From NCBI GenBank assembly GCA_016930365.1, contig JAFGGY010000181.1:1-56815 (forward strand): a DNA stretch of 56,815 bases, read 5' to 3'. The stretch is from Prolixibacteraceae bacterium (GTDB taxonomy: Bacteria; Bacteroidota; Bacteroidia; Bacteroidales; Prolixibacteraceae). The translations under genes were made by a program, and so were the position numbers. A model generated the notes under the pieces. The model saw nothing but the letters and a program-made list of their open reading frames with translations. It was not told where the DNA came from and made no database searches. This document shows positions 23,948 through 37,526 of this stretch, one piece after another; position 1 is the first letter of the stretch; the number at the start of each line of letters is the position of its first letter.

Positions 23948-24123
23948 ACAATTCAGACGGTGGAACGTTTTAAAAATGTATTAAAGTTTGTAAAAATAGC
24001 TTCGTACACATGTCATATTTCTTCAAATTGAAAAAATAGTTTCTCATTTGTTATGCTCTTTTCGTTCAACTTATTACATTTATCGCATAAGTTACACAAA
24101 ATTACAAAAAAGTAACACGATAA

Positions 24124-26160
24124 ATGATTGAACTAAAAGAAATGAACCTGAAAGCTTTAGCAATGGCTGTTTTTTGTATCATGTTATGTGCTAAAATAAC
24201 TTGTGCGGCAACATCCGATACAATTAAAATTGATGAAGTAGTAGTAACAGGAACCAAAACAAAGCGTGCATTAAAAGAAGTGCCTGCACGAATTAACATT
24301 ATCAGCTCACAAATGATTGAGGAAATACCGGTTATGCAAACCGATGATTTGCTGCGCTTCACGACGGGAGTGAATATCAACCGTTCAACGGGTATTTACT
24401 CGCAACGTCCAATGATTACACTTCGCGGTTTATCTGGCGATGAGCAAGCCCGTACCCTGGTGCTGATGAATGGAATACCGATGAACACCTCGGATGAAGG
24501 CGGTGTGAATTGGAACCGGATTAACCACAACGACATCGAGCAGATTGAAGTTTTTAAAGGCCCAGGCTCATCACTATACGGCAACAATGCAATGGGGGGC
24601 GTTATCAATATCATCACCAAAAAACCAAAAAAAGATAAAGAAGCTTATGCTTCAATATCGTACGGAACACTTAATACGGTTAGACAAGATCTGGGGCTTA
24701 GGTTGAAAAATGAAAACGGATATTATGCTGTTTTATCGCAATATTATCTAAAAAGCGATGGATACATTAACCTGCCTGAAGAAGACCGAACAGCGTTTGA
24801 TATTGCCCGTTCACTTGAAGAAACCGGCTTGTCGGCAAGGGTTGGCAACGAACAAAACCCATGGCTCCGCTGGGAACTTCAATACGACATTTTCAGGGAC
24901 AAACGTGGCGAAGGGTACCAAATTTACACCCCATCGGGTTGCTACCGTAATTTCGATACCAACTTTTTGCGGGGCATCTTAAACGGCGGCAATACAAAAA
25001 CACAATATAACTTCAACATATTTTACCAATTGGAGCATTACTACGATGTGAATGAACGATTACGTAGCAATTCTTATTCACGCTACGATGTCGATTCGTA
25101 CCGTAAAGACTATGGCGCTTTGTTTTCAGTATCGCATAAGCTGATTGATGGCAACACGTTAACGACCGGCTTGGAAGTGAAACAGGGCAGCATTGCCGGT
25201 GGCGATTATTATCAAACCGCCCCTTATGACACCATTTATAACGAAGGAAAAACACGAACGTATGCCGGGTATATACAGGATGAATACACATTTTGGGACG
25301 AAAGAATAACCATGGTTGCCGGGTTGCGTTTTGACCATGTGCAATTTTTTGATGGTCATTATGACACTACCGACCCCTGGAATACCACTCCTGAACTAAC
25401 AGACAATAGTTGGAATTCATTTTCGCCACGCCTTGGGTTTCGCTTCAATTTTGTTGAAAATATGAGTGCATATATAAACTACTCGCATGGTTTCAGGGCA
25501 TCGATACTTGATGACCTTACCCGCACCGGATGGATGTGGGTTGGCCCAAAATACGCAAACCCCGACCTCGGGCCTGAGTCGCTCGATAATTTTGAAGCCG
25601 GCATTGATTACAGCCTTAATAAAAAACTCGATATTTCGGCTACGGCCTGGCTTTCAAAGGGCGACGACTTTTTATATTACGTAAGTACGGGCGACAGCCT
25701 GTGGGGACGCCCAATTTCGATTCGCGAAAATGTAACCGGTATCACCTCGCACGGGCTTGAGGTGGAAGCGAAATACCGTCCAACATCCAGTATCAACCTG
25801 GGGGCAGGTTATACTTTTTCGCAGTCAAACATCGACCAATTCGATGAACGACCCGAGTTGGAAGGCAAGGCACTTAAATATGCACCCGAACATGTTGCTT
25901 CGTTTGTTGCCATGTGGATAAACAACCTGGCAAACGTTTCGATAACCGGCCAATACAAGGGGCAGCAATTTACAGACGATACCAATACCCAAACCATTGA
26001 AAGTTATACAACTTTTGATGTAATGATTTCAAAATCGATTGGAAAAAACCTTACGTTGTCGGTTGATGTACGTGACATAATGAACAACAAACATCTCGAA
26101 ACAGCTGAATATTTGTCGCCTGGCAGGCTCGTTTCGCTCAAAGCAAGTATTAAATTATAA
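24124..26160 (+). CDS. TonB-dependent outer-membrane receptor
   Basis: A receptor of up to 678 residues. The signal peptide is near the N-terminus; an in-frame ATG at 24142 (MNLKALAMAV) gives a better signal peptide than 24124. A TonB box-like DEVVVTGTK follows, then the plug domain (RINIISSQMIEEIPVMQTDD, GNNAMGGVINIITKKP) and the 22-strand barrel ending in the aromatic-poor SLKASIKL. There is no N-terminal carboxypeptidase-like domain, unlike SusC proteins; this points to a siderophore/cobalamin-type receptor. It starts an operon with a binding protein and FecCD permease. The ligand is not identified. Confidence 0.93.
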   Translation: MIELKEMNLKALAMAVFCIMLCAKITCAATSDTIKIDEVVVTGTKTKRALKEVPARINIISSQMIEEIPVMQTDDLLRFTTGVNINRSTGIYSQRPMITLRGLSGDEQARTLVLMNGIPMNTSDEGGVNWNRINHNDIEQIEVFKGPGSSLYGNNAMGGVINIITKKPKKDKEAYASISYGTLNTVRQDLGLRLKNENGYYAVLSQYYLKSDGYINLPEEDRTAFDIARSLEETGLSARVGNEQNPWLRWELQYDIFRDKRGEGYQIYTPSGCYRNFDTNFLRGILNGGNTKTQYNFNIFYQLEHYYDVNERLRSNSYSRYDVDSYRKDYGALFSVSHKLIDGNTLTTGLEVKQGSIAGGDYYQTAPYDTIYNEGKTRTYAGYIQDEYTFWDERITMVAGLRFDHVQFFDGHYDTTDPWNTTPELTDNSWNSFSPRLGFRFNFVENMSAYINYSHGFRASILDDLTRTGWMWVGPKYANPDLGPESLDNFEAGIDYSLNKKLDISATAWLSKGDDFLYYVSTGDSLWGRPISIRENVTGITSHGLEVEAKYRPTSSINLGAGYTFSQSNIDQFDERPELEGKALKYAPEHVASFVAMWINNLANVSITGQYKGQQFTDDTNTQTIESYTTFDVMISKSIGKNLTLSVDVRDIMNNKHLETAEYLSPGRLVSLKASIKL

Positions 26161-26162
26161 CA

Positions 26163-27251
26163 ATGAAGAAAACTATTCTCATATTATGTGTTTTAATGCA
26201 AGTGCTGTTTTTAGCTTGCAAGCACCAGCAAAACCAAAATGCAGCAAATACCCGCACATTTACCGACATGCTGGGCCGGCAGGTTCAACTGCCCGACACC
26301 CTGAACCGCATTGTTGGCGTGCGAGCCAGTGCCCTCCGTATGTTGCTGTACATGGATGCTGCCGATAAAATTGTTGGCATTGAGGATATTGAACACCGCA
26401 ATGAGCGTCCTTACATTCTGGCTCATCCTGAACTACTGAAACTACCAACCATTGGCCCTATGATGGGGGGCGATGCCGAGTTGATTTTAAAAGTCAGGCC
26501 AGAAGCTATTTTTATAACTTACGCTACCATAGAAGATGCCGACCGGCTACAAAAACAAACCGGTATCCCGGTTGTGGCTATCGATGCAACCGAATTTGGA
26601 ATTGCACGCGATACCTTGTTTTCTACATTCAGGATGCTTGGAAAAATATTACATAAAGAAGCCCGTGCCGATTCGCTGGTACATTTTATCAACCACAATA
26701 TAGAGGAATTAGATCAACGTACGAATGACTTACCCGAAACGGAAAAACCCACTGCCTATATTGGTGGCGTACCATACAGTGGGGCTCATGGCATCACTTC
26801 AACCCAACCCTACTACCCGCCTTTTATGTTCTTAAATGCCAAAAACGTAGCTGCCGAAGTGAAGGACGAAAGCTATTCTCATGTGCGTGGTACTTACATA
26901 GATAAAGAACAGCTGTTGCTGTGGAACCCCGGGTATATTTTTATTGACAATTCGGGTTTATTACTAACAAAAAACGACCTTGCATCGGGTAGCTCGTTGC
27001 AGGAAAGCCTCAATGCCATTCAAAATGGACAAACCCATGTGGTAATGCCCTATAACAATTATGCCACCAACTACGAATTGGTGCTGGCCAATGCCTGGTA
27101 TATCGGGAAAGTACTTTATCCCGAACAGTTTGCAGACATCAACATTAAAGAAAAAACCAATGAAATAACCCAACAGTTTTTGGGCGCAAAGCTATACGAT
27201 AGCTTGACATCACAAACCCCGATTTTTGAACCAATAAACCTGTTAAAATGA
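26163..27251 (+). CDS. ABC transporter substrate-binding lipoprotein (FepB/BtuF class)
   Basis: A 362-residue lipoprotein with a lipobox FLAC at Cys19. The mature part is a cluster A-II (Peripla_BP_2) binding protein: FTDMLGRQVQLPDTLNRIVG opens the first lobe, RPEAIFITYA lies before the linking helix, and the second lobe contains NPGYIFIDNSG. Proteins of this class bind Fe-siderophores, haem or corrinoids. The gene begins two bases after the receptor stop, and its own stop overlaps the permease ATG (ATGA). The ligand cannot be read from the sequence. Confidence 0.92.
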   Translation: MKKTILILCVLMQVLFLACKHQQNQNAANTRTFTDMLGRQVQLPDTLNRIVGVRASALRMLLYMDAADKIVGIEDIEHRNERPYILAHPELLKLPTIGPMMGGDAELILKVRPEAIFITYATIEDADRLQKQTGIPVVAIDATEFGIARDTLFSTFRMLGKILHKEARADSLVHFINHNIEELDQRTNDLPETEKPTAYIGGVPYSGAHGITSTQPYYPPFMFLNAKNVAAEVKDESYSHVRGTYIDKEQLLLWNPGYIFIDNSGLLLTKNDLASGSSLQESLNAIQNGQTHVVMPYNNYATNYELVLANAWYIGKVLYPEQFADINIKEKTNEITQQFLGAKLYDSLTSQTPIFEPINLLK

Positions 27252-28306
27252 CCGAAAAAATTGTAGCACAATACAAAAAGTTTATTCGCCGGCGGGTTTG
27301 GTTTATGGTACTTACCGTATTATTGCTCATCGGCTTTGCTGTTCTGGCTTTGGTTTCAGGTTCGGCCGACACCTCATTTTCGTCGTTGCTGAGGGTTATT
27401 AGTGGAAACGGCGAGCCATTTTCATCGCAAATTATACTTTCGATACGGCTGCCACGGGTTATCGGGGCAGTATTGGCCGGAACTGCACTGGCTGTTTCAG
27501 GTGCCGTTATACAAAGCTTGTTAAAAAACCCGCTGGCATCGCCGTTTACCCTTGGCATATCGGGTGCGGCAGCTTTTGGGGCCGCTTTCGCCATTATTTT
27601 TCTGGGGGCAGGTAGTGGCTATAGTGGGCCGGCCGATGCAGCTATTGTTGACAACCCATACGTGGTCACCCTTTCAGCATTTATCTGGAGTTTGGTGAGC
27701 GTGTTGGTCATCTTGTTTTTATCGAAATACAAAGGTGCGACCCCCGAGGTTATTATCCTGTCGGGCATCATCATTTCATCACTTTTTGGCGCCGGCATAT
27801 CGGCCATGCAATATTTTTCGGACGATGTGCAACTGGCAGCCATCGTGTTCTGGACCTTTGGTGACATGGGGCGGGCTACCTGGCGCGAAACCATTATTAT
27901 GTCAGCTGTTTTGGTACCGGTGATGGCATTTTTTCTGCAACAAAGCTGGAATTATAAATCGTTGCAATCGGGCGACGAATATGCCCGCAGCCTCGGGGTA
28001 AACGTAACCCGTGTGCGGCTTACCGGCATGGTGGCAGCATCGCTGGCTACGGCGGTGGTGGTATCGTTTTTCGGGGTGATTGCCTTCGTTGGGCTGGTTG
28101 TACCACACATTGTCAGGCGCATAATAGGCTCCGACGAACACTTTGTGATTCCGGCCTCTGCCCTGTTTGGCGGCGCATTTCTGTTGCTCAGCGACACACT
28201 GGCCCGTACAGCCCTGGCACCTGTGATTATGCCCGTAGGCATACTTACTTCGTTTATCGGTGCCCCATTGTTTTTGTTTTTGCTAATTCGGGGGATGAAA
28301 CGATAA
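27248..28306 (+). CDS. FecCD-family ABC transporter permease
   Basis: A 352-residue inner-membrane permease with about ten membrane segments. RLPRVIGAVLAGTALAVSG is the family signature near the N-terminus, and GVIAFVGLVVPHIVRR near residue 275 is the coupling-helix region that contacts the ATPase. It overlaps the binding-protein gene by four bases. The partner ATPase is not adjacent: a chemotaxis receptor gene on the other strand lies between (28334-29437). Confidence 0.94.
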   Translation: MTEKIVAQYKKFIRRRVWFMVLTVLLLIGFAVLALVSGSADTSFSSLLRVISGNGEPFSSQIILSIRLPRVIGAVLAGTALAVSGAVIQSLLKNPLASPFTLGISGAAAFGAAFAIIFLGAGSGYSGPADAAIVDNPYVVTLSAFIWSLVSVLVILFLSKYKGATPEVIILSGIIISSLFGAGISAMQYFSDDVQLAAIVFWTFGDMGRATWRETIIMSAVLVPVMAFFLQQSWNYKSLQSGDEYARSLGVNVTRVRLTGMVAASLATAVVVSFFGVIAFVGLVVPHIVRRIIGSDEHFVIPASALFGGAFLLLSDTLARTALAPVIMPVGILTSFIGAPLFLFLLIRGMKR

Positions 28307-28333
28307 AGTTATTAGCACGGAAAATTCGAAAAA

Positions 28334-29437
28334 TTACAATTTGAAAAATGATATGGTTTTGTTTAACGAGTCAGCCTGAGCTGCAAGTTCTTCTGCGCTG
28401 GCAGCCATTTCTTCTGAAGTTGTAGCGTTTTGTTGTGTGATATTATTTAAATATTGACTTGATTCATTGACTTGCTTAATTCCGGTTGATTGTTCAATGC
28501 TCGATTTAGAAATATCTTGTGAAATAGAAACAGACTCCAGTATTTGGGGTAACATGTCAGCAATTTTCTGTTCGGCCAATTTTCCCAGATGGGAACTTTT
28601 TAAAGAAATTTCTATAACTTCACTTGCTAACTCTTTTGTTTGCGATGCTAATCTTTTAACTTCGTCGGCAACAACTGCAAAACCTCGGCCTTCTTCCCCT
28701 GCTCGCGCTGCTTCAACGGCAGCATTTAATGCCAGTAAGTTTGTTTGGAAAGCAATACTGTTTACCATCGAAAGCTTTTCTGTAATATGATTGTACGCTT
28801 TAATTGCTTCGCGAGTACTGGCAACAACTTCAGTTACTGCTTTTTCAGTTTCAATTGCAATTATGCCTGATTTTGCAACTTTTTCGATACTAATCTGAAG
28901 CATGCTATCTATATCTTCAGTTGTTGCAGATAGTTCTTCGATTGAAGATGCTTGTTCAGAAGCACTTTGCGAAAGACTTTCGGAAGTGCTACTTAGTTGT
29001 TGGCTACTTAAGCTAAGTGTGTCTGAGTGCGATTTTATTTCAGACGTAATATTTCTTAGGTTTTTAATCAAATTTGAAGTTGATATTTGAATCATTTTAA
29101 CTTCGCCTTTCACATTCAGATTCTTTATCGTAAAATCCAGGGTTCCTTTTGAAAGGTCGTCAATTTGTTGCGCAATACTTTTAAGGGGGAAGGCTACTTT
29201 TTTACGTATTAACAACACATAACCCAAAAGAGTAATATAAACAACTGGCACAGCCCAAAATAAGTGTGAAGTACCTTTTTGTCCAACGATATTGAAGCAC
29301 AACCCCGATATTATTGCAATAAATAATGTGCTAAATGCAACGGATGATGCGATGGTGTTCTTTAGAAAAATACGTACCAGTATTATGGAAACGATTATTG
29401 ATGCAGAAGCCACTAGGACAATTGATAGAATTCTCAT
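28334..29437 (-). CDS. Methyl-accepting chemotaxis protein without periplasmic sensor
   Basis: A 367-residue receptor. Three hydrophobic segments fill residues 4-78 with almost no loop between them, so there is no classical periplasmic ligand domain. A HAMP-like stretch follows (about 83-135). The signalling domain has the conserved hairpin tip [20 protein letters not shown] and [15 protein letters not shown], which bind CheA/CheW in known systems. No che genes or motility genes are in the window. It is inserted, in reverse, between the permease and ATPase genes of one transporter, and its base composition is more AT-rich than theirs. Function as a chemotaxis or other signalling receptor is inferred. 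Confidence 0.9.
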
Positions 29438-29853
29438 ATTAAATGGATAATGTGTTAATTTAAATGAGGGTGTATTTGTATATACAACGATTACAAATGT
29501 ATAAAAAATATGATAATTTTTTTAAGAAAGTTAATCTTAGAAAAAATGTTGATTATTTTAAAAATGCATACTCAAAATGAGGACTGTTAATATCAACAGT
29601 ACGTTAGATTTTAGTACCCCAGCCGCTGTGCGGTATATTCAAAAAACTAACGCTTGTGAGTTAAATAAAAGACATGAGACTTTGTTTGTAATAAATTAAA
29701 TGTCAGCAACATAGGTAATTAAATCAATAAAACACAAATGTCTCATTATTGACAACTTAAAAAACAACAACGAACAATTGAATATAGAAATGTATATTTA
29801 AACTATACAAGAAAAAATGCGAATCAAGGTGTCTTTTTGTATATTTACACCCT
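29438..29853. other. 416-bp intergenic region between divergent MCP and ABC ATPase genes
   Basis: No gene was found. On the minus strand CAAATGTA at 29494-29501 reads TACATTTG, a good -7 box for the MCP gene. ACTGTT/AACAGT (29583-29600) forms a short inverted repeat. Just before the ATPase ATG, GGTGT and ACACC flank a TATATTTA box (29831-29851), which could be an operator. All of these are weak, single-copy signals. Confidence 0.4.
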
Positions 29854-30615
29854 ATGAAAATTTCCATTTCAAACATATCATTTAGCTACAACGGCACACC
29901 AACCCTTAGCAATATTGGTTTCGATATTGAAAAAGGTGACCTTGTTGCCCTGGTGGGACCCAACGGCTCGGGGAAAAGTACACTCATAAAATGTATGAAT
30001 GGCATTTTAAAACCACATCAGGGCACGATTCTTATTAACGAAAAAACGCTTAGCGACTACACCCCCGGTGAACTGGCACAGGAAATAGCCTACATCCCAC
30101 AAAACGAAAACCGCAATGCCAGCATGAATGTCTTCGATATGGTTTTGCTGGGGCGCAAACCTTATATCAACTGGAAACCATCGGAACACGATTTACAAAT
30201 TACTGCCGAAATAATCGATGCACTGCACATCGGTCAATTATCGATGCGTCCGTTTAACAAGCTTAGCGGGGGCCAGCAACAGACCGTTTACATTGCCCGT
30301 GCCCTGGCACAGGAACCCGATATATTGCTGCTCGACGAGCCTACATCGAACCTCGACATGCAACACCAACTGGAGGTGTTGGAACTATTAAAAAATTTCA
30401 CCCAAAAAGGGCTTACCGTTATTATTGCCCTACACGATATAAACCTGGCTGCCCGCTATGCCAACAAAATGATGATGCTAAAGTCGGGGCGCGTATTTGC
30501 TGCCGGGACAACCGAAATTATAAACGAACCTAACATCGAGAATCTTTTTGGCATTAAAGTGAAAATTATAAAAGACGACGGGGATTTGTTTGTGATTCCA
30601 AAAGGATTGAAATAA
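29854..30615 (+). CDS. ABC transporter ATP-binding protein (FecE/BtuD class)
   Basis: A 253-residue ATPase. VGPNGSGKSTLIKCMNG is Walker A (about 35), LSGGQQQTVYIARALAQ the ABC signature, ILLLDEPTSNLD Walker B, and the switch His lies in IIALHDINLAARY. The domain fits iron-chelate/cobalamin importers and is the expected partner of the FecCD permease ending at 28306. It is now about 1.5 kb away, with its own upstream region. Its codon use (many GCC/CTG/CCC codons) resembles the permease rather than the gene in between. Confidence 0.94.
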   Translation: MKISISNISFSYNGTPTLSNIGFDIEKGDLVALVGPNGSGKSTLIKCMNGILKPHQGTILINEKTLSDYTPGELAQEIAYIPQNENRNASMNVFDMVLLGRKPYINWKPSEHDLQITAEIIDALHIGQLSMRPFNKLSGGQQQTVYIARALAQEPDILLLDEPTSNLDMQHQLEVLELLKNFTQKGLTVIIALHDINLAARYANKMMMLKSGRVFAAGTTEIINEPNIENLFGIKVKIIKDDGDLFVIPKGLK

Positions 30616-30681
30616 GAAAAAACAAGCATGGTATCACAATTTGTTGCAACTTTTGAAATTATTCATTGAGTTTAAAATCGT

Positions 30682-30689
30682 TAAATTTG
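30682..30689 (+). promoter_or_regulatory. Bacteroidota -7 box before the CotH lipoprotein gene
   Basis: TAAATTTG matches TAnnTTTG and lies 50 bp before the ATG at 30740. No -33 block at the normal spacing. Confidence 0.4.
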
Positions 30690-30739
30690 TGTGAAAATGT
30701 AATTTAGTGCCATTTCAATTAACATGTTAAAATATAACA

Positions 30740-31912
30740 ATGTACACCAGACTCATAAAACAAGTTTCAATTATATTTTTATTGTTTTGTATTTCATGTT
30801 CAAATAACAAATTCCCTGAGCTCAATATCATTGTTGACGAACCCATTGGATGGGACAACAAACAATTTTGCCGTGTAGTTTACACCAATCGCTGGGAGCA
30901 CGACACACTTGATGCCGGAATAAAGTGCAGGGGCGGCATGTCGAGCAAATACTTCAAACACTCCTATTCGCTTGAGTTAGATAAAAAATATGATTTACTT
31001 GATATAAACCATGACGATGACTGGATAGTAAACGCAAATTATATTGACAAAACATTTATGCGCCATAAAATAAGCTACGATATTTTCAGGGAAATGAACA
31101 AGAAAAAAAACGTTGCTGCAAAATGTGGATATCTAAACGTATTCTTAAATGGAAGGTATAATGGGTTATATGTTTTAATGGAAGAAGTTAACGGGAAAAT
31201 GGTAGGACTGGATAAAAACGATTCACTATCGATGCTATTCAAAGATCCACCTGTTTTTTATGATGAAAAATTATCTTATGTACAAGATCCATCAAACTAT
31301 TATCATCAAAAGTACCCTAAGCTTCACGAGAAAGACCATTCAGCTTATATTGAAAAATTTATCGATTTTATTTTTAATTCTGATGATGATTTATTTGCTA
31401 AAAACATAAGTAACTGGATAGATATCGACAATGTTATTGATTGGCACATACTTCTGTTATATACAAACAACTCTGATGGAATTATGAAGAATTTTTTGCT
31501 CTATAAAATAGACAGCAATACCCCATTCAGGATAGCATTGTGGGATTACGACCATTCTTTTGGTCGGGATGGTGATAATGAGATGAATATGATGGAGAAT
31601 GAGCTTAACTGCAAAAGGTCAATCTTATTAAAAAGATTAATGGAAATTGAAGCGTTAAACTATAATGAAAAGTTAAGCAAGCGATGGAAATCATTAAGGG
31701 AAGATAATATCATTTCAGTTAAGTGTTTTGAAAAACACATTAAACGAAATCATAAGATAATTAAAGACCAAGTTGAAAGAAATTTTGAGAAATGGCCGGT
31801 CAACGAAAAATGGTATTACGATGATAACAACTATCACAAAGAATTAGATTTGATGCGCCAGTTTGTAAATCTGAGAATAAAACAACTTGATGAGCGTTTC
31901 TCGTATAATTAG
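30740..31912 (+). CDS. CotH kinase family lipoprotein (first of three)
   Basis: A 390-residue lipoprotein with lipobox CISC (Cys20). The CotH fold is shown by KCRGGMSSKYFKHSYSLEL (about 62-80), NVFLNGRYNGLYVLMEEVNG (about 133-152) and WDYDHSFGRDGD (about 268-279). The last contains DxDxxxG, the motif associated with metal and ATP in characterised CotH protein kinases. Such kinases phosphorylate spore-coat or secreted proteins; the substrate here is unknown. The gene sits between the ABC ATPase and TsaA-FmdE genes, is AT-rich relative to both, and probably entered the locus later. It is related to, but shorter than, the protein at 55197-56723. Confidence 0.86.
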   Translation: MYTRLIKQVSIIFLLFCISCSNNKFPELNIIVDEPIGWDNKQFCRVVYTNRWEHDTLDAGIKCRGGMSSKYFKHSYSLELDKKYDLLDINHDDDWIVNANYIDKTFMRHKISYDIFREMNKKKNVAAKCGYLNVFLNGRYNGLYVLMEEVNGKMVGLDKNDSLSMLFKDPPVFYDEKLSYVQDPSNYYHQKYPKLHEKDHSAYIEKFIDFIFNSDDDLFAKNISNWIDIDNVIDWHILLLYTNNSDGIMKNFLLYKIDSNTPFRIALWDYDHSFGRDGDNEMNMMENELNCKRSILLKRLMEIEALNYNEKLSKRWKSLREDNIISVKCFEKHIKRNHKIIKDQVERNFEKWPVNEKWYYDDNNYHKELDLMRQFVNLRIKQLDERFSYN

Positions 31913-31938
31913 TTCCACTTAGAAAGAAAAAATATACA

Positions 31939-33042
31939 ATGTACACAATAGACATGAACCCAATCGGCATTGTCAAAAATAATTTTGATAAACCCGCACC
32001 TTTTAACGACATCAAAGCGCAACCCAGCACCATTGTTATATACGATGAATATGCCGAAGCGCTTACGAATATCGATGAAGTAATATACCTCGATATTGTG
32101 TTTAACTTCCATCTTTCACACAACGACAAGTTGGCACATACGACATATTTTGGCGATTTTCGTGGGGTTTTTGCCTCACGCAGCCCGTTTCGCCCCAACC
32201 TTATCGGGGTAACAAGGGTGAAGCTTGTCCGGCGCGAAGGAAACCATCTGCTGGTTGAAGGCCTCGATGCCATTAACAACAGCCCGGTGCTCGACATTAA
32301 AAGCAGCGATACTTCACATTTGGCCGATAACGACGATACACTCGGTCAGCAGCGCGAATTGTTAAAAAAACGCCCCCGCATGGAAATCGAAAAGCTTATT
32401 GCCCAAAACGATATGGAAGGCCTGATGATAAAAGCAGCCCAGATTCACGGGCATTTTTGTCCGGGACTTGCCATGGGCATTATGGCTGCAACACAAGCCA
32501 TGCGCGAGCTCAAAGCACAATCCGACGGCATGGAAGACCTGCTGGCCATTACCGAAACCAACAACTGCATGGCCGATGGCATCCAGTTTGTTACCGGTTG
32601 TACCTTTGGCAACAATGCACTTATTTTTAACGATGTGGGCAAAAATGCGTTTACGCTTACTCATCGCAATGGAAAAGGAATTAGGATTGTTGCCAAACCC
32701 GGAAACCAGGCAACGATAAACGATGCTTCTCCCGATTTTAAGAATTTATATCAAAAAGTGGTTGCTGAACAAAACCACGATGAGCAATTGATTGCCCAAT
32801 ACAAAAAAGTATCGTTAAACCGTTCGTTTGGTACGCTTCAAATTCCTTTCGATATGCTTTTTACAATGCAGCAGGTTGATGCCGAAATACCAAGCTATGC
32901 GCCCATGTTCGAGAGTGTGGTGTGCAGTAATTGCGGCGAAAGCGTTATGAGTTCGCGTGCCATAAAAAACAACGACGGCTATAGGTGTTATTCTTGTAAC
33001 AACTCAACCATTCGGTTTTTAGATGGGCATGGAATTCATTAA
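31939..33042 (+). CDS. TsaA/TrmO-like domain fused to FmdE domain and zinc ribbon
   Basis: A 367-residue fusion. Residues 1-125 are a TsaA (UPF0066/TrmO) domain: PIGIVKNNF at the start and FASRSPFRPNLIG (about 78-90), the SAM-binding signature of tRNA m6t6A methyltransferases. Residues about 160-265 are an FmdE domain, with HGHFCPGLAMG (about 170-180), TETNNCMADG and TGCTFGN. The C-terminus has CSNCG and CYSC (about 329-353), a zinc ribbon typical of FmdE proteins. FmdE relatives are not catalytically defined. The gene lies with the iron/corrinoid-type import genes, so a role in metal or cofactor handling is inferred. Its stop codon overlaps that of the converging giant gene. Confidence 0.88.
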   Translation: MYTIDMNPIGIVKNNFDKPAPFNDIKAQPSTIVIYDEYAEALTNIDEVIYLDIVFNFHLSHNDKLAHTTYFGDFRGVFASRSPFRPNLIGVTRVKLVRREGNHLLVEGLDAINNSPVLDIKSSDTSHLADNDDTLGQQRELLKKRPRMEIEKLIAQNDMEGLMIKAAQIHGHFCPGLAMGIMAATQAMRELKAQSDGMEDLLAITETNNCMADGIQFVTGCTFGNNALIFNDVGKNAFTLTHRNGKGIRIVAKPGNQATINDASPDFKNLYQKVVAEQNHDEQLIAQYKKVSLNRSFGTLQIPFDMLFTMQQVDAEIPSYAPMFESVVCSNCGESVMSSRAIKNNDGYRCYSCNNSTIRFLDGHGIH

Positions 33043-36000
33043 TGCTTAATGAAAACCGAAGACTGAAGTCCCGATTTTACCAGATATAAGCCATTTGGCA
33101 GTTGCGAAATAGTTATCTCGCATCGATTTTCAGTAACGTTTTGTGAATAAACACATTCTCCGGTAAGGTTATAAATCATAATTGGAGCTGTAGGGGTTTT
33201 TCGGCCTTCTATCCTAATAGTTTCGGAGGCCGGGTTAGGATAAACCTTTAATGCCGTTTCGCTTTCGAAATGCTTTGTTGATGAAACCATTAGGCTTATA
33301 TCTTCAATTATCCAGTTGCTTCCGAAGTGGTTGTCAACATTATACGAATTGAGAACGATACCTGTTGTCGAATTTCCGAGTATGGGCCAGGGGTTTTTGT
33401 TGTTGTATTTTACACCATCGATAAGAATGCCGGTTTCAGATTCGAGCAGTATAGTTTCGCCTTCATCGGCCAGTTTGCCACTGCTCCATTGGTATAGGTT
33501 TTTAGGTTTATTGTCCCAGTATGGATGTAGAATATCTGCTGTGAGGTAGGCTCTTTCGCCTGCATTAATTGTTGTGCCTGTTGGAAACTCAAAAGTTACG
33601 CCCCGGGTAATTTTCATTCCAGTCAAATCGATTTCTGTATTTGACGGATTATAAATAGAAAAGAACTCCGGAAGGTCGGTTTGCTCAGATGTTGAGTAGA
33701 ATATTCTGTCGATGATAAGTTTTGGGCTTATGCCGGGTGTTGGCAATGTAATACCCATATTCATGCCATTGGATGCGGCTGTAATTGCCGGTGAGGCATT
33801 CGTTAAACCAAAGTTGTAAAAAGTTGGATTATCGAATATGGGGTTGGCAAGCAGGTTGTTGTATTCGTTTGGTAAGCTGTCGTTATCCGACAAACTGTAA
33901 CGAACGGTTAAGGTCGAATTATCATCGCATAAAAGGGTCGATTCGTAACTGTTTGACAAAATGGAGTTTTGTACCACAACATTGGCACCAGCACGACCCG
34001 GGTTTTTCTCGTAAGTGGCTATCGAAATGTTGTTTCCATAGTACGTACAATGGTCTATTGTAACCCGGCTCGAGTCTTTTAACCCGGCTCCAAGATTGCA
34101 GGCTGTGAAAATTGAATTTCGTACTGTAGCCGTCGATTGTTGTCCTACCGATACGCCTTTATCGGTAATGTTATATACAAAAATGCTGTCGATAAGCACA
34201 TTTTGCGATTGTTCGCCAATATCGATGGCATCGCTGTTGCTCCCGTGGAAGTCGTGTATTGTTGAGTTTTTAATGATTCCGTTTTCAACATCGTCGTAAT
34301 CAATGGCATCGGTGTCGGACTGGTTGTTGCCTGTAAACCGGCAGTTATCGATAAATCCTTTCCCATATTTCACATTAATTAAATCGCCTGTAATTGCCGA
34401 GTGCAGATACGAATTGGTAAGCCTGATGTCGGAGTATCTTCCGGCAATGGGGTTTCCGTGTACATTTTCAATGGTTGTGCTATCGATTACAACAATGGAG
34501 TGATAAGCCGAAATGGCCGCTGTTTCGCGTATGGGATGTTTTCCACTCGAGGCATCTTCGATAAGCACATTACTAAAATATGAAGTATCGGCAACACCTA
34601 CAATGTTAATAATTCCCCAGGGTTCACCGTTGTTTTGCGGGTTCGCTTTGAAAATAACCGGATGCCCGTTGGTGCCTTTTGCCACAATGGAGCCATTGGC
34701 GGTAATAGTTCCGTTTTCGGGCATCCATATTTCAACGTCTTCTTCAATAATTAATTTGCCGGTTGATGTAATTTCAACGTCTTGTTGAACTAAGTATGGC
34801 GAGCACTCTTTCGTGAGAATATGTTCCGAAGTAATATTTGACGGCACGATACAAGCCCCGGTTTGTTCAAAAATCGCAGTAATTTGCAATTCTTCTTTGG
34901 TAGTAATGTTAATTGTCGGATTGGTCGAGATTAAATTTTCTGTTTCTGCAATAATTGCCGAAAGTTCAAGGTCGAAACTGATGTCGCTGCTGGTTTCCTC
35001 TGTTTGATGTATTTCAACAGCAAGTAAGTTCTCTCCATTTTTTAAATAGTTTGCCGAAATGCTGAATTGTTTAAACGACGATTCATTGCTAATGCCTTTA
35101 GATGCGGTAGTTTTGAAGTCGATTATTCCATCGGGCATGTTGGCTCTCAATATTTCTTCGTTGTTAAGATAAACAACTGCACCATCGTCGTATTTAAGGT
35201 TCAGAATAAGGTTTTGAAAATTGGCATCGTAAACAGTAAAAGTTTTTCTGAAGTATGTGGTTATATGCTTATTGTTGCCATCATTGCCAAAGCTAACGAT
35301 GGTGTTTTCATCACCGTCGCCATAACCGAGTTCGGCTTGTCCTTCCGGCCAGTTTTCATCGTTATAAGTGAAGTCTTTCCAGCTAAGGTCTAAATCAGAG
35401 CCACTATCGTTGTATTTCCAATGCGATTTCTTTTCAACCAGGTTTATTTTTTCAGATTGCGACCATCCAACAAACCTGTACCCGGGCAGGGCATCTGCTT
35501 TTAATTCAACATTTTCGTTGGCAGGGTATTTACCAGTGCAATTTTCAATAGGTATTTTCAATCCGTTAAAATGAATATGGCCTGCATTCTCGGGATAGGT
35601 TGATACCACAAGAGGAATGCTCTTTTCAAAACCATATTGGGTTAAATCGTCTAAAATATGCGAAGTTCGGGTATTTATAAAGTCTTTGAGATCTTGTACC
35701 TCTTCGAGCCAATAGTCGTACGATCTGAGCGGTTGTCCGTAATTGTCAATTGCCGTAGTTCCCTCCCAGCGTTCTACGTGTTTAGGTATTTCGTCTTGTA
35801 TCGAATTTTTATGCCTTTCGATAAGTGGAATGATACGTCCGGGATGAAAAGTTGTGAACAAATGATCGGCAGTTCTTTTGCCCAGGTAGTGAATGTATTC
35901 GGGGTTTTCGGCCAATTCTTTTAGGGGCCATGCGTCTTGTTTGATATAGAAATCCAGCAGGTGATCGTCGACATTGAAAAATCCACGGTCAATGTCCATT

Positions 36001-37526
36001 AGTATCCAGCGCCACTTTCCGGTTGATTTTTGCCTCCATGCCATCACATTATGGCCGATGGATGTATTTCCACTCCACAGTTCGGTAATAACCAAATCGG
36101 TAAAGTTTTCAATGTCCATTTCGTTTTCAACAGCAAGCCAATTTTCGGCATTGGTAAGGTTGTTTTTTGTTATATCAATAAGTTTGTTGTAAGCAGCCAG
36201 TGCTTCTTCGCCACCTTCTTCGGCATATTCCTCGTATTCTACCATGTATATGTCGTTTTCGGGTATGTCGAAGTTCTGCATTACATAATCGTCGTTTATT
36301 TTTTCCCTGATGTTATGAATTCCCATGTACTCGCCATTGACGTAAACTGCGCAGGCTCTGAAGCCCGAGTTGTCTACTTGTGTATAATTGTAAGTAGCAT
36401 TTTGCGCCATGCCGTCTCTAAATAAGGTATAAGTCCAGTCGCTTCCCGAAGCCCGTAAGGCAAACGAATCGTATTTTTTCCGTTTTTTCTCAAAAATAAG
36501 TGGATAGTCGAGTTTTCCTTCACCGTATTCTTTTCTGAAATATACCCCAAGCATTTTTTGAGGTAGTTTCCAAGCATAAAGAGCATTTATTTTAACACCT
36601 GCTCTCAGGTTAAAAGCTGCACGATCGCTGCCGTCGTTTTCGAAAAGTTCAATATTTACCGGTATTTCCCATTCGGGTTTGTAATCCTGCACATAAATCC
36701 CTTTTTCTGAATCCCAGAAATTATCGGGATGTGTTGATATGGCTACAACAGGTAGCGAGCCAATTTCTTTGTTCGAGTTGATGAAATAAGTTTGAGTAAC
36801 AACGTTTCCGGGTTTTTCACCCTGTTTAAATATTCGGGCACGTACAACCGTTGTCTTACTTATATTAAGTGGCTCGATGCTAAGAGGCGAATTTTCATCG
36901 GGTTCGGCTCCATTTAGTGTATATCGCACTTCACCACCAAATTTCGATTCAATTTGTACCTCAATGGCATGGTTGTAAATTCCACCATTTAACGAAAAAT
37001 GTGGTGAGCTGTAAACAATATCAGTAAACGAATTGCCCAGATTTTGCTCACCGGGACTTGATTCAGTATAAAAAACCCAATTTTGAGCACCGTCGCTTTC
37101 GCGCCCCATCGAAATGTTGGGTTCCTGCTGCTTAAACGAAATCGAATCGATTATTTCGCCATAAGGTGAAATCAGGGCCAGTTCTTCGCCATCGGCCGAT
37201 AATTTGAACGAAGCATGAAGCCCGACATTTAATCCATCAGCCCATATTAGTTGATATCCATTGGCTTCAATCGATGTGTTTGTTTTGATTTGCCATTTGG
37301 TCGGATTCGAAAAATTATCGGTAAGAAAATAATTGTTTAGCGAAACCGGTTGGTCAGACGAATTATATATTTCAACCCAGTCGGCGCTTTCGTTGTAATC
37401 GGGGTCAACAACAGCGCCCGAATTCGAAGCCATGAATTCGTTTATTAGAATCTGTCCAAAGATTTGGTGTTGCGCAGTAAAAAAGAATAGAGTAAAAAAA
37501 AAGTATAATGTGTATGTTTTTTTCAT
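33039..37526 (-). CDS. Giant T9SS-exported lamin-tail/CotH/beta-helix protein
   Basis: A 1495-residue secreted protein. Domains in order: signal peptide (1-24); lamin-tail domain (about 25-150, INEFMASNSGAVVDPDY); chitobiase-like beta-sandwich (about 175-250, VRYTLNGAEPDENSPL); CotH domain (about 285-630, VYVNGEYMGIHNIREKI, WILMDIDRGFFN); a small InlB-like segment (about 640-690, YRFVGWSQ); galactose-binding-like domain (about 705-865); parallel beta-helix (about 930-1230); second lamin-tail domain (about 1255-1390); and a type IX sorting domain (about 1420-1495, VYPNPASETIRIEG). In the CotH part the final Gly of DxDxxxG is replaced (DIDRGFF). The start codon lies inside repeat copy B. An adhesin or cell-surface modifying role is inferred. 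Confidence 0.88.
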   Translation of the reverse strand: MKKTYTLYFFFTLFFFTAQHQIFGQILINEFMASNSGAVVDPDYNESADWVEIYNSSDQPVSLNNYFLTDNFSNPTKWQIKTNTSIEANGYQLIWADGLNVGLHASFKLSADGEELALISPYGEIIDSISFKQQEPNISMGRESDGAQNWVFYTESSPGEQNLGNSFTDIVYSSPHFSLNGGIYNHAIEVQIESKFGGEVRYTLNGAEPDENSPLSIEPLNISKTTVVRARIFKQGEKPGNVVTQTYFINSNKEIGSLPVVAISTHPDNFWDSEKGIYVQDYKPEWEIPVNIELFENDGSDRAAFNLRAGVKINALYAWKLPQKMLGVYFRKEYGEGKLDYPLIFEKKRKKYDSFALRASGSDWTYTLFRDGMAQNATYNYTQVDNSGFRACAVYVNGEYMGIHNIREKINDDYVMQNFDIPENDIYMVEYEEYAEEGGEEALAAYNKLIDITKNNLTNAENWLAVENEMDIENFTDLVITELWSGNTSIGHNVMAWRQKSTGKWRWILMDIDRGFFNVDDHLLDFYIKQDAWPLKELAENPEYIHYLGKRTADHLFTTFHPGRIIPLIERHKNSIQDEIPKHVERWEGTTAIDNYGQPLRSYDYWLEEVQDLKDFINTRTSHILDDLTQYGFEKSIPLVVSTYPENAGHIHFNGLKIPIENCTGKYPANENVELKADALPGYRFVGWSQSEKINLVEKKSHWKYNDSGSDLDLSWKDFTYNDENWPEGQAELGYGDGDENTIVSFGNDGNNKHITTYFRKTFTVYDANFQNLILNLKYDDGAVVYLNNEEILRANMPDGIIDFKTTASKGISNESSFKQFSISANYLKNGENLLAVEIHQTEETSSDISFDLELSAIIAETENLISTNPTINITTKEELQITAIFEQTGACIVPSNITSEHILTKECSPYLVQQDVEITSTGKLIIEEDVEIWMPENGTITANGSIVAKGTNGHPVIFKANPQNNGEPWGIINIVGVADTSYFSNVLIEDASSGKHPIRETAAISAYHSIVVIDSTTIENVHGNPIAGRYSDIRLTNSYLHSAITGDLINVKYGKGFIDNCRFTGNNQSDTDAIDYDDVENGIIKNSTIHDFHGSNSDAIDIGEQSQNVLIDSIFVYNITDKGVSVGQQSTATVRNSIFTACNLGAGLKDSSRVTIDHCTYYGNNISIATYEKNPGRAGANVVVQNSILSNSYESTLLCDDNSTLTVRYSLSDNDSLPNEYNNLLANPIFDNPTFYNFGLTNASPAITAASNGMNMGITLPTPGISPKLIIDRIFYSTSEQTDLPEFFSIYNPSNTEIDLTGMKITRGVTFEFPTGTTINAGERAYLTADILHPYWDNKPKNLYQWSSGKLADEGETILLESETGILIDGVKYNNKNPWPILGNSTTGIVLNSYNVDNHFGSNWIIEDISLMVSSTKHFESETALKVYPNPASETIRIEGRKTPTAPIMIYNLTGECVYSQNVTENRCEITISQLPNGLYLVKSGLQSSVFIKH

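Follow-up and report, generated by a model that had tools for sequence, protein, structure and literature searches.

Why would a protein that joins a TsaA domain, an FmdE domain and a zinc ribbon be encoded beside the genes of a chelate importer, and what would that importer carry? These questions are raised by a stretch of 56,815 nucleotides from a Prolixibacteraceae bacterium of the Bacteroidota (assembly GCA_016930365.1, contig JAFGGY010000181.1, positions 1 to 56,815; this whole stretch is called the window here), in which genes for a TonB-dependent outer-membrane receptor, a periplasmic binding lipoprotein, a FecCD-type permease and a FecE-type ATPase are followed in the same direction by a gene for a TsaA-FmdE fusion. 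We posit that the locus is a nickel-acquisition system and that the fusion is its nickel-handling partner, an explanation to which, taken whole, we give a probability of about 0.72. Its parts differ in strength: judged from gene linkage, the imported cargo is very probably nickel, and it is likely, if a little less so, that the fusion serves nickel handling and not tRNA modification.

Linkage of the fusion to importers and to nickel genes

Is the fusion's place beside an importer a peculiarity of one genome? Species-representative genomes were scanned with two proteins, yielding 100 relatives, of which the best 80 were used. An open reading frame (ORF) scan gave 39 fusion loci, that is, both domains in one ORF: the window, locus L033 and 37 of the 80 relatives (handles of this kind denote single loci, genomes or contigs). 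Five of the 82 stretches, for which the ORF picker gave no FmdE ORF (L068, L084, L100, L101 and L106), went uncounted, even though L068 matches the fusion full-length by tblastn; L069 likewise matches but was scored as FmdE-only. Stand-alone FmdE loci were kept apart from the fusion counts, and one fusion-protein alignment took in 30 of the 39. Carriers among the 39 loci comprise Bacteroidota, Balneolaceae, Bacillota, Spirochaetales, Bipolaricaulota, Halorhabdus, Pacearchaeota, Lokiarchaeota, Methanofastidiosia and Methanosarcinales. Two of the carriers are cultured strains, Halanaerobacter jeridensis DSM 23230 and Geofilum rubicundum JCM 15548. At a distance of seven genes or fewer from the fusion lie FecE (32/39), FecCD (27/39), a binding protein (25/39) and TonB (10/39), and also NikR, the nickel-responsive repressor (17/39), HypB (4/39), HypA (3/39), HypE (3/39) and HypD (2/39), all of these being lower bounds because many contigs end near the fusion. 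The linkage between fusion and importer is old, spans phyla and both prokaryotic domains and goes far beyond chance. The initial annotation had suggested a functional tie of the fusion to a metal or chelate importer, and had named a lack of conserved linkage in a survey of TsaA-FmdE against FecCD as the finding that would speak against this; the tie is supported by conservation across phyla and both domains, with FecCD nearby in the 27 loci just given.

The fusion once looked like a rare oddity, with a both-domain match in just 2 of 296 genomes of a first phylum sample; the second of these is L033, in which a TonB receptor (by eye), a binding protein and the fusion stand side by side. That impression was overturned by a sample of 393 genomes of the same order, in which 33 matches, less four single-domain ones (G359, G321, G505 and G377), left 29 fusion genomes. 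The relative scan, the order sample and the NikR surveys overlap in genomes (e.g., G397 and that of L046) and are not independent.

Which metal, then, does the linkage point to? The recurring neighbour of 133 to 143 residues is NikR (Pfam NikR_C matched on the four tested). In the same order, where 96 of the 393 genomes have NikR, it is present in 18 of 29 genomes with the fusion versus 78 of 364 without it (odds ratio 6.0, p 7.9e-6), a p-value that overstates independence because the genomes are related. More telling are the distances: in 12 of the 18 same-order genomes having both, NikR and the fusion lie within 10 kb of each other. Of 38 other genomes with the fusion, 31 have NikR. Genes for nickel enzymes and their maturation are found beside the fusion as well: hypD-hypE-hypA-hypB stands directly upstream of it in L042 and L059, and in Halanaerobacter jeridensis (L058) the gene order nikR-larE-binding protein-FecCD-FecE-fusion places larE within the operon. 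In the genome of the window itself, nikR heads a larE-larC-larB operon on contig C150 (L115, 9691-12950), all above their NCBIfam cut-offs, and a 427-residue protein on contig C182 (L116, 754-2037) scores 667 bits (cut-off 500) as a "nickel-dependent putative hexonate epimerase" of the LarA type.

The linkage to NikR, Hyp and Lar genes makes nickel the most likely cargo. The metal, which the initial annotation had left unnamed, can thereby be narrowed to nickel. Cobalamin and NiCo riboswitches are absent from the window and from 17 fusion loci, and a B12 or cobalt cargo signalled by a riboswitch was rejected.

Two side observations concern these genes of the window's genome. A half-site GTGTTAC lies just upstream of the nikR that heads the lar operon, and the epimerase gene adjoins a gene resembling a PfkB sugar kinase (by eye), which hints at a sugar-acid pathway that consumes nickel.

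The locus and its relatives

The features of the locus, with the domains of the fusion after the genes, are as follows.

24091-24118, + strand: pair of NikR-like half-sites, GTTACAC-N14-GTAACAC, preceding the TonB receptor gene (pattern match)
24124-26160, + strand: TonB-dependent outer-membrane receptor (PF07715, E 2.5e-25; PF00593, E 8.6e-45)
26163-27251, + strand: Peripla_BP_2 periplasmic binding lipoprotein (PF01497, E 1.6e-21)
27248-28306, + strand: FecCD/BtuC-type permease (PF01032, E 7.4e-88), with a 4-bp overlap with the lipoprotein gene
28334-29437, - strand: methyl-accepting chemotaxis protein, between permease and ATPase (domain scan of window proteins)
29854-30615, + strand: FecE-type ATPase (PF00005, E 6e-35)
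30740-31912, + strand: CotH protein, between ATPase and fusion (domain scan of window proteins)
31939-33042, + strand: TsaA(TrmO_N)-FmdE-zinc-ribbon fusion of 367 residues (PF01980, PF02663, C-terminal CxxC...CxxC)
31954-32304, + strand: TsaA domain of the fusion; R81, D110 and K121 align with the AdoMet (S-adenosylmethionine) ligands of AF0241
32443-32862, + strand: FmdE domain of the fusion; H170, H172, C174 and C210 align with the metal ligands of 2GLZ
32923-32997, + strand: zinc ribbon of the fusion, C329-C332...C350-C353 (CxxC...CxxC)

The domain matches of the locus genes are far above chance, and the set of TonB receptor, class III binding protein, FecCD and FecE is complete in the window, in an order kept in relatives. 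All five genes named in the initial annotation are at the positions and in the shared direction that it gave; the two interrupters, the chemotaxis receptor and the CotH gene, had escaped it. Alignment with L037 suggests that the real start of the TonB receptor may be 24142, an ATG conserved in that locus. The whole genome of the window holds one FmdE and two FecCD matches that pass the cut-off, with a third short of it.

Among the best 80 of the 100 relatives the closest is L037, at 87% identity over the matched part. It lacks the chemotaxis-receptor and CotH inserts and carries a PemK/MazF-like gene (PF02452) between ATPase and fusion instead. Across relatives, the median gap is -4 bp between FecCD and FecE (33 pairs) and 14 bp between FecE and the fusion (27 pairs). 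Because the importer genes touch in relatives, the window carries an interrupted version of an operon that is compact elsewhere.

The junction of ATPase and fusion seems prone to insertions, with CotH in the window and the PemK/MazF-like gene in L037. On its far side, the end of the fusion gene overlaps by 4 bp a gene on the opposite strand (33039-37526, -) for an LTD/CotH/beta-helix protein of 1495 residues with a Por_Secre_tail sorting domain; this neighbour is kept in locus L038, and both it and the insert at 30740 are CotH proteins.

The fusion protein

What can the fusion itself tell us? TrmO_N is matched over residues 26-121 (E 4.3e-22) and FmdE over residues 169-308 (E 2.5e-35; PF02663 at 121.9 bits against a cut-off of 22.9). 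An AlphaFold model (mean pLDDT 86.4, pTM 0.64) agrees with this division: in Foldseek searches its first part best matches 2nv4, the AdoMet-bound AF0241 (TMt 0.87), and its second part matches the FmdE structures 2gvi (TMt 0.77, E 1.7e-12) and 2glz (TMt 0.78, E 2.7e-9).

The ligands of AdoMet in AF0241 are Arg82, Asp111 and Lys122, with Gln22 as a fourth, as the structural passages of PMC4132733 describe; in the alignment R81, D110 and K121 fall on the first three and are invariant in 39/39 fusions. Likewise H170, H172, C174 and C210 fall on His15, His17, Cys19 and Cys55 of 2GLZ (alignment, match ends), again in 39/39, and the metal site of 2GLZ held mixed Zn/Ni in the crystal according to the 2GLZ passages of PMC2954224. 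All 33 fusions that cover the zinc ribbon retain its cysteines. The Asn of the RPN motif is different, being N in 22, S in 14, G in 2 and T in 1 of the 39 fusions versus N in 27/27 stand-alone TrmO proteins. The DPRxxY motif is absent from the fusion, and was dropped as an argument against work on tRNA when the 27 stand-alone relatives examined turned out to be without it too.

In a tree of the TsaA domain (138 columns, 71 rows, with many inner forks unresolved), a single branch with support 99/91 unites 38 of the 39 fusions with the split gene of L073, which is linked to NikR; the L071 fusion lies elsewhere, and the TrmO encoded separately in the genome of the window, a stronger match than the fusion (129.1 versus 81.6 bits), sits in the other half.

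A candidate control region

Could NikR control the operon directly? The box upstream of the TonB gene is a suggestive candidate for a NikR operator. GTAACAC is the delta-proteobacterial NikR half-site, published as an inverted repeat with a spacer of 13/14 in the NikR section of PMC545781; the box in the window is a direct repeat, unlike the published arrangement, and the published inverted box was rejected, its best match in the window having 3 mismatches in 14. The pattern GTWACAC-N14-GTWACAC, picked post hoc, has this single exact match in the 3.3-Mb assembly; with one mismatch allowed it occurs in three further places, as does a reversed control pattern. At the same two places L037 has GTGTTAC-N14-GTGTCAC, and in L039 two half-sites follow each other at a step of 22 bp. 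Among 24 regions upstream of NikR, TonB and binding-protein genes, direct repeats (again a post hoc pattern) occur in 6 versus 0 in 200 shuffle rounds, and the half-site, a pattern chosen after inspecting these very regions, occurs in 17 versus a shuffled mean of 3.3. Aside from L037 and L039, all ten newly examined NikR/TonB upstream regions lacked the direct repeat.

Upstream of the TonB genes of L046, L050, L044 and L034 we observe GTAACAC/TTAACAC direct repeats at a 13- to 14-bp spacing, possibly the form of the NikR operator in Bacteroidota.

A proposed route for nickel and its alternatives

In total, the observations above are consistent with a mechanism of five steps. By homology, the TonB receptor would bring nickel through the outer membrane as a complex, the lipoprotein would bind it and FecCD/FecE would pump it into the cytoplasm. 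Once bound to nickel, NikR would shut the operon off, as the box and the linkage suggest. Given the invariant residues and the related crystal structure, a cytosolic TsaA-FmdE dimer would then take nickel at the His-x-His-x-Cys...Cys site of FmdE. The next step is the least certain: an AdoMet-loaded TsaA barrel would act beside the metal site, the likeliest options being a class VIII methyltransferase or an AdoMet-gated partner that controls the hand-over of metal, and we rate methyl transfer as its chemistry at somewhat under an even chance. Finally, in the genome of the window the nickel would feed synthesis of the nickel-pincer nucleotide (LarB/LarC/LarE) for the LarA-type hexonate epimerase; in other species, where hyp genes adjoin the fusion, it would feed [NiFe]-hydrogenase.

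Several observations weigh against this picture. No NikR was seen in 11 of the 29 same-order and 7 of the 38 other fusion genomes, many of these assemblies being incomplete, and the nikR of the window's genome lies on another contig than the importer. That assembly (88.9% complete) yielded no large subunit of a [NiFe]-hydrogenase, so that the organism's need for nickel rests on one LarA-type enzyme. The passages on archaea in PMC3087415 allow that some NikR homologues there may respond to other metals. The solved chain closest to the lipoprotein, 2etv_A (E 5.6e-82), is labelled a putative periplasmic iron-binding protein of an iron(III) ABC transporter, and a more distant match is HI_1472 (E 5.6e-16). 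Within the fusion, the residue corresponding to Gln22 of AF0241 is unconserved, the zinc ribbon is missing in two Bacteroidota fusions (L033 and L107), and the nickel in 2GLZ could stem from the nickel column used in purification.

Might the cargo be another metal? Iron, cobalt or B12, molybdenum and tungsten could each be argued for from the annotation of related binding proteins, HI_1472 being a binder of molybdate/tungstate, and from FmdE, which is named after a methanogen operon for a molybdenum enzyme. There is also a CbiM in L036, and NikR may act on cobalt too. We nevertheless hold such a cargo to be quite improbable in view of the NikR, Hyp and Lar linkage and the lack of both riboswitch types in the window and in 17 fusion loci; the molybdenum/tungsten reading was dropped once those genes were found beside the fusion, and no formylmethanofuran dehydrogenase (fmd/fwd) genes were among the ten neighbours scanned, the rest of the genome not having been searched. 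More improbable still is a role in tRNA modification, with the fusion acting as a TrmO on t6A and standing in the operon either fortuitously or as a means of coupling translation to nickel. It does match PF01980 and TIGR00104 (86.3 bits, short of the cut-off of 93.25) and keeps the Arg, Asp and Lys ligands of AdoMet, but the genome has its own stronger TrmO in a different branch, 38 of the 39 fusions share one branch with the split gene of L073 (99/91), and the neighbourhood holds nickel genes, not tRNA genes.

If the fusion handles nickel, does it process a chelator, gate a transporter or do something more general? The TsaA part could lower the affinity of an organic nickel ligand, and so release the metal, by methylating that ligand or another group close to the FmdE site. 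TonB- and binding-protein-dependent systems usually transport complexes, and the AdoMet site is kept in 39/39 while the RPN Asn is relaxed to S, G or T in 17/39, as though TsaA had switched to a new methyl acceptor; in Ta1109, an unknown ligand 1.8 A from the metal-site Cys looks enzyme-like in the account of that structure in PMC2954224. We regard this as possible but doubtful, since the fusion or stand-alone FmdE also adjoins transporters with no need for a common ligand. In L036 a NikR-fusion pair precedes CbiM, CbiQ and an ATPase (a CbiMNQO-type energy-coupling factor, or ECF, importer); RcnA/HoxN-like membrane proteins, by weak family matches only, stand near the fusion or stand-alone FmdE in L043, L048, L051 and L072; and SBP_bac_5/Nik-type ABC genes occur in L071 and in 10 of 38 FmdE-only loci. 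Stand-alone FmdE without TsaA is common, too, although four of the FmdE-only loci also hold TsaA as a gene of its own (the order in L073 is NikR-FmdE-TsaA-SBP_bac_5). Such variety speaks against a role bound to a single chelator, without deciding among the alternatives of the initial annotation, which had the protein process, sense or insert the imported metal or cofactor or modify the chelator. A non-catalytic sensor or gate, which would hold nickel and AdoMet and slow down either the transporter or an enzyme of maturation, would suit any transporter class; the zinc ribbon, kept in 33/33, suits protein contacts, and in H. pylori a metallochaperone is reported to control nickel uptake (PMC7840056). 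The three strictly kept AdoMet ligands fit binding or catalysis alike, and we judge this role to be unlikely. Because transporter class varies while nickel stays constant, a cytosolic step after import is favoured for the nickel-handling fusion. Taken to its end, this would make TsaA-FmdE a transporter-independent nickel-processing enzyme of bacteria and archaea, whose FmdE His/Cys site takes nickel and whose TsaA AdoMet chemistry frees it for cofactor assembly; we offer this tentatively, as rather less probable than its opposite, and if true it would give class VIII methyltransferases a second function and the FmdE family its first.

In one methanofastidiosial locus (L053, 9923-11687), directly after the fusion come a second TsaA, which stands alone and is of the SBP_bac_5-linked type, and a second FecCD importer.

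Relation to known systems

Why would it matter? If the proposal is right, cells of many phyla employ an AdoMet-binding protein on the path of nickel from importer to enzyme, and anaerobic Bacteroidota likely have an outer-membrane route for the metal. The nickel chaperones HypA/HypB, UreE and LarC act later than, or differently from, that step. FmdE had no assigned function, and the tie to the NikR regulon turns an earlier remark that its genes lie near metal transporters (PMC2954224) into a testable claim.

Much of the scaffold has precedents. Helicobacter takes up nickel through FrpB4 and NiuBDE (H. pylori) or NikH and CeuE/FecDE (H. mustelae), as the uptake sections of PMC5140060 set out, and the system in the window resembles these in combining a TonB receptor with a FecCD/FecE-type ABC importer tied to NikR. 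It differs in that the operon includes TsaA-FmdE and extends over Bacteroidota and many other phyla; the Helicobacter passages of that paper do not mention the fusion. The FmdE part shares its fold and its His/His/Cys/Cys metal site with 2GLZ, 2GVI and 3D00 (PF02663), and the family passages of the same 2010 account (PMC2954224) state that most FmdE genes adjoin genes for metal-ion transporters and list an FmdE-UPF0066 fusion as an architecture; nickel is not named in those passages as the transported metal, and function is left unassigned there. The TsaA part resembles the class VIII AdoMet methyltransferase TrmO/YaeB in its beta-barrel and its Arg, Asp and Lys ligands, as the enzyme is presented in the structural portions of PMC4132733, which also point to a possibly different target of archaeal YaeB; unlike TrmO/YaeB, the fusion lies in a branch separate from its own genome's TrmO, is joined to FmdE and has a relaxed RPN Asn. 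In 2024 the same domain pair was reported as FmdE-tRNA methyltransferase fusions of Methanosarcinales and Archaeoglobales (PMC11237513); the passages concerned consider that it may belong to the Fmd complex in a regulatory capacity and do not raise a nickel context. The main text of Zhang 2009 (PMC2667541) contains no occurrence of FmdE, TsaA or TonB, and in the portions of the open-licence literature covered we found no link of an FmdE, TsaA or UPF0066 protein to nickel or NikR. Import of nickel by TonB and FecCD proteins is thus known already, as is the TsaA-FmdE fusion; what is apparently new is that the fusion is linked to nickel.

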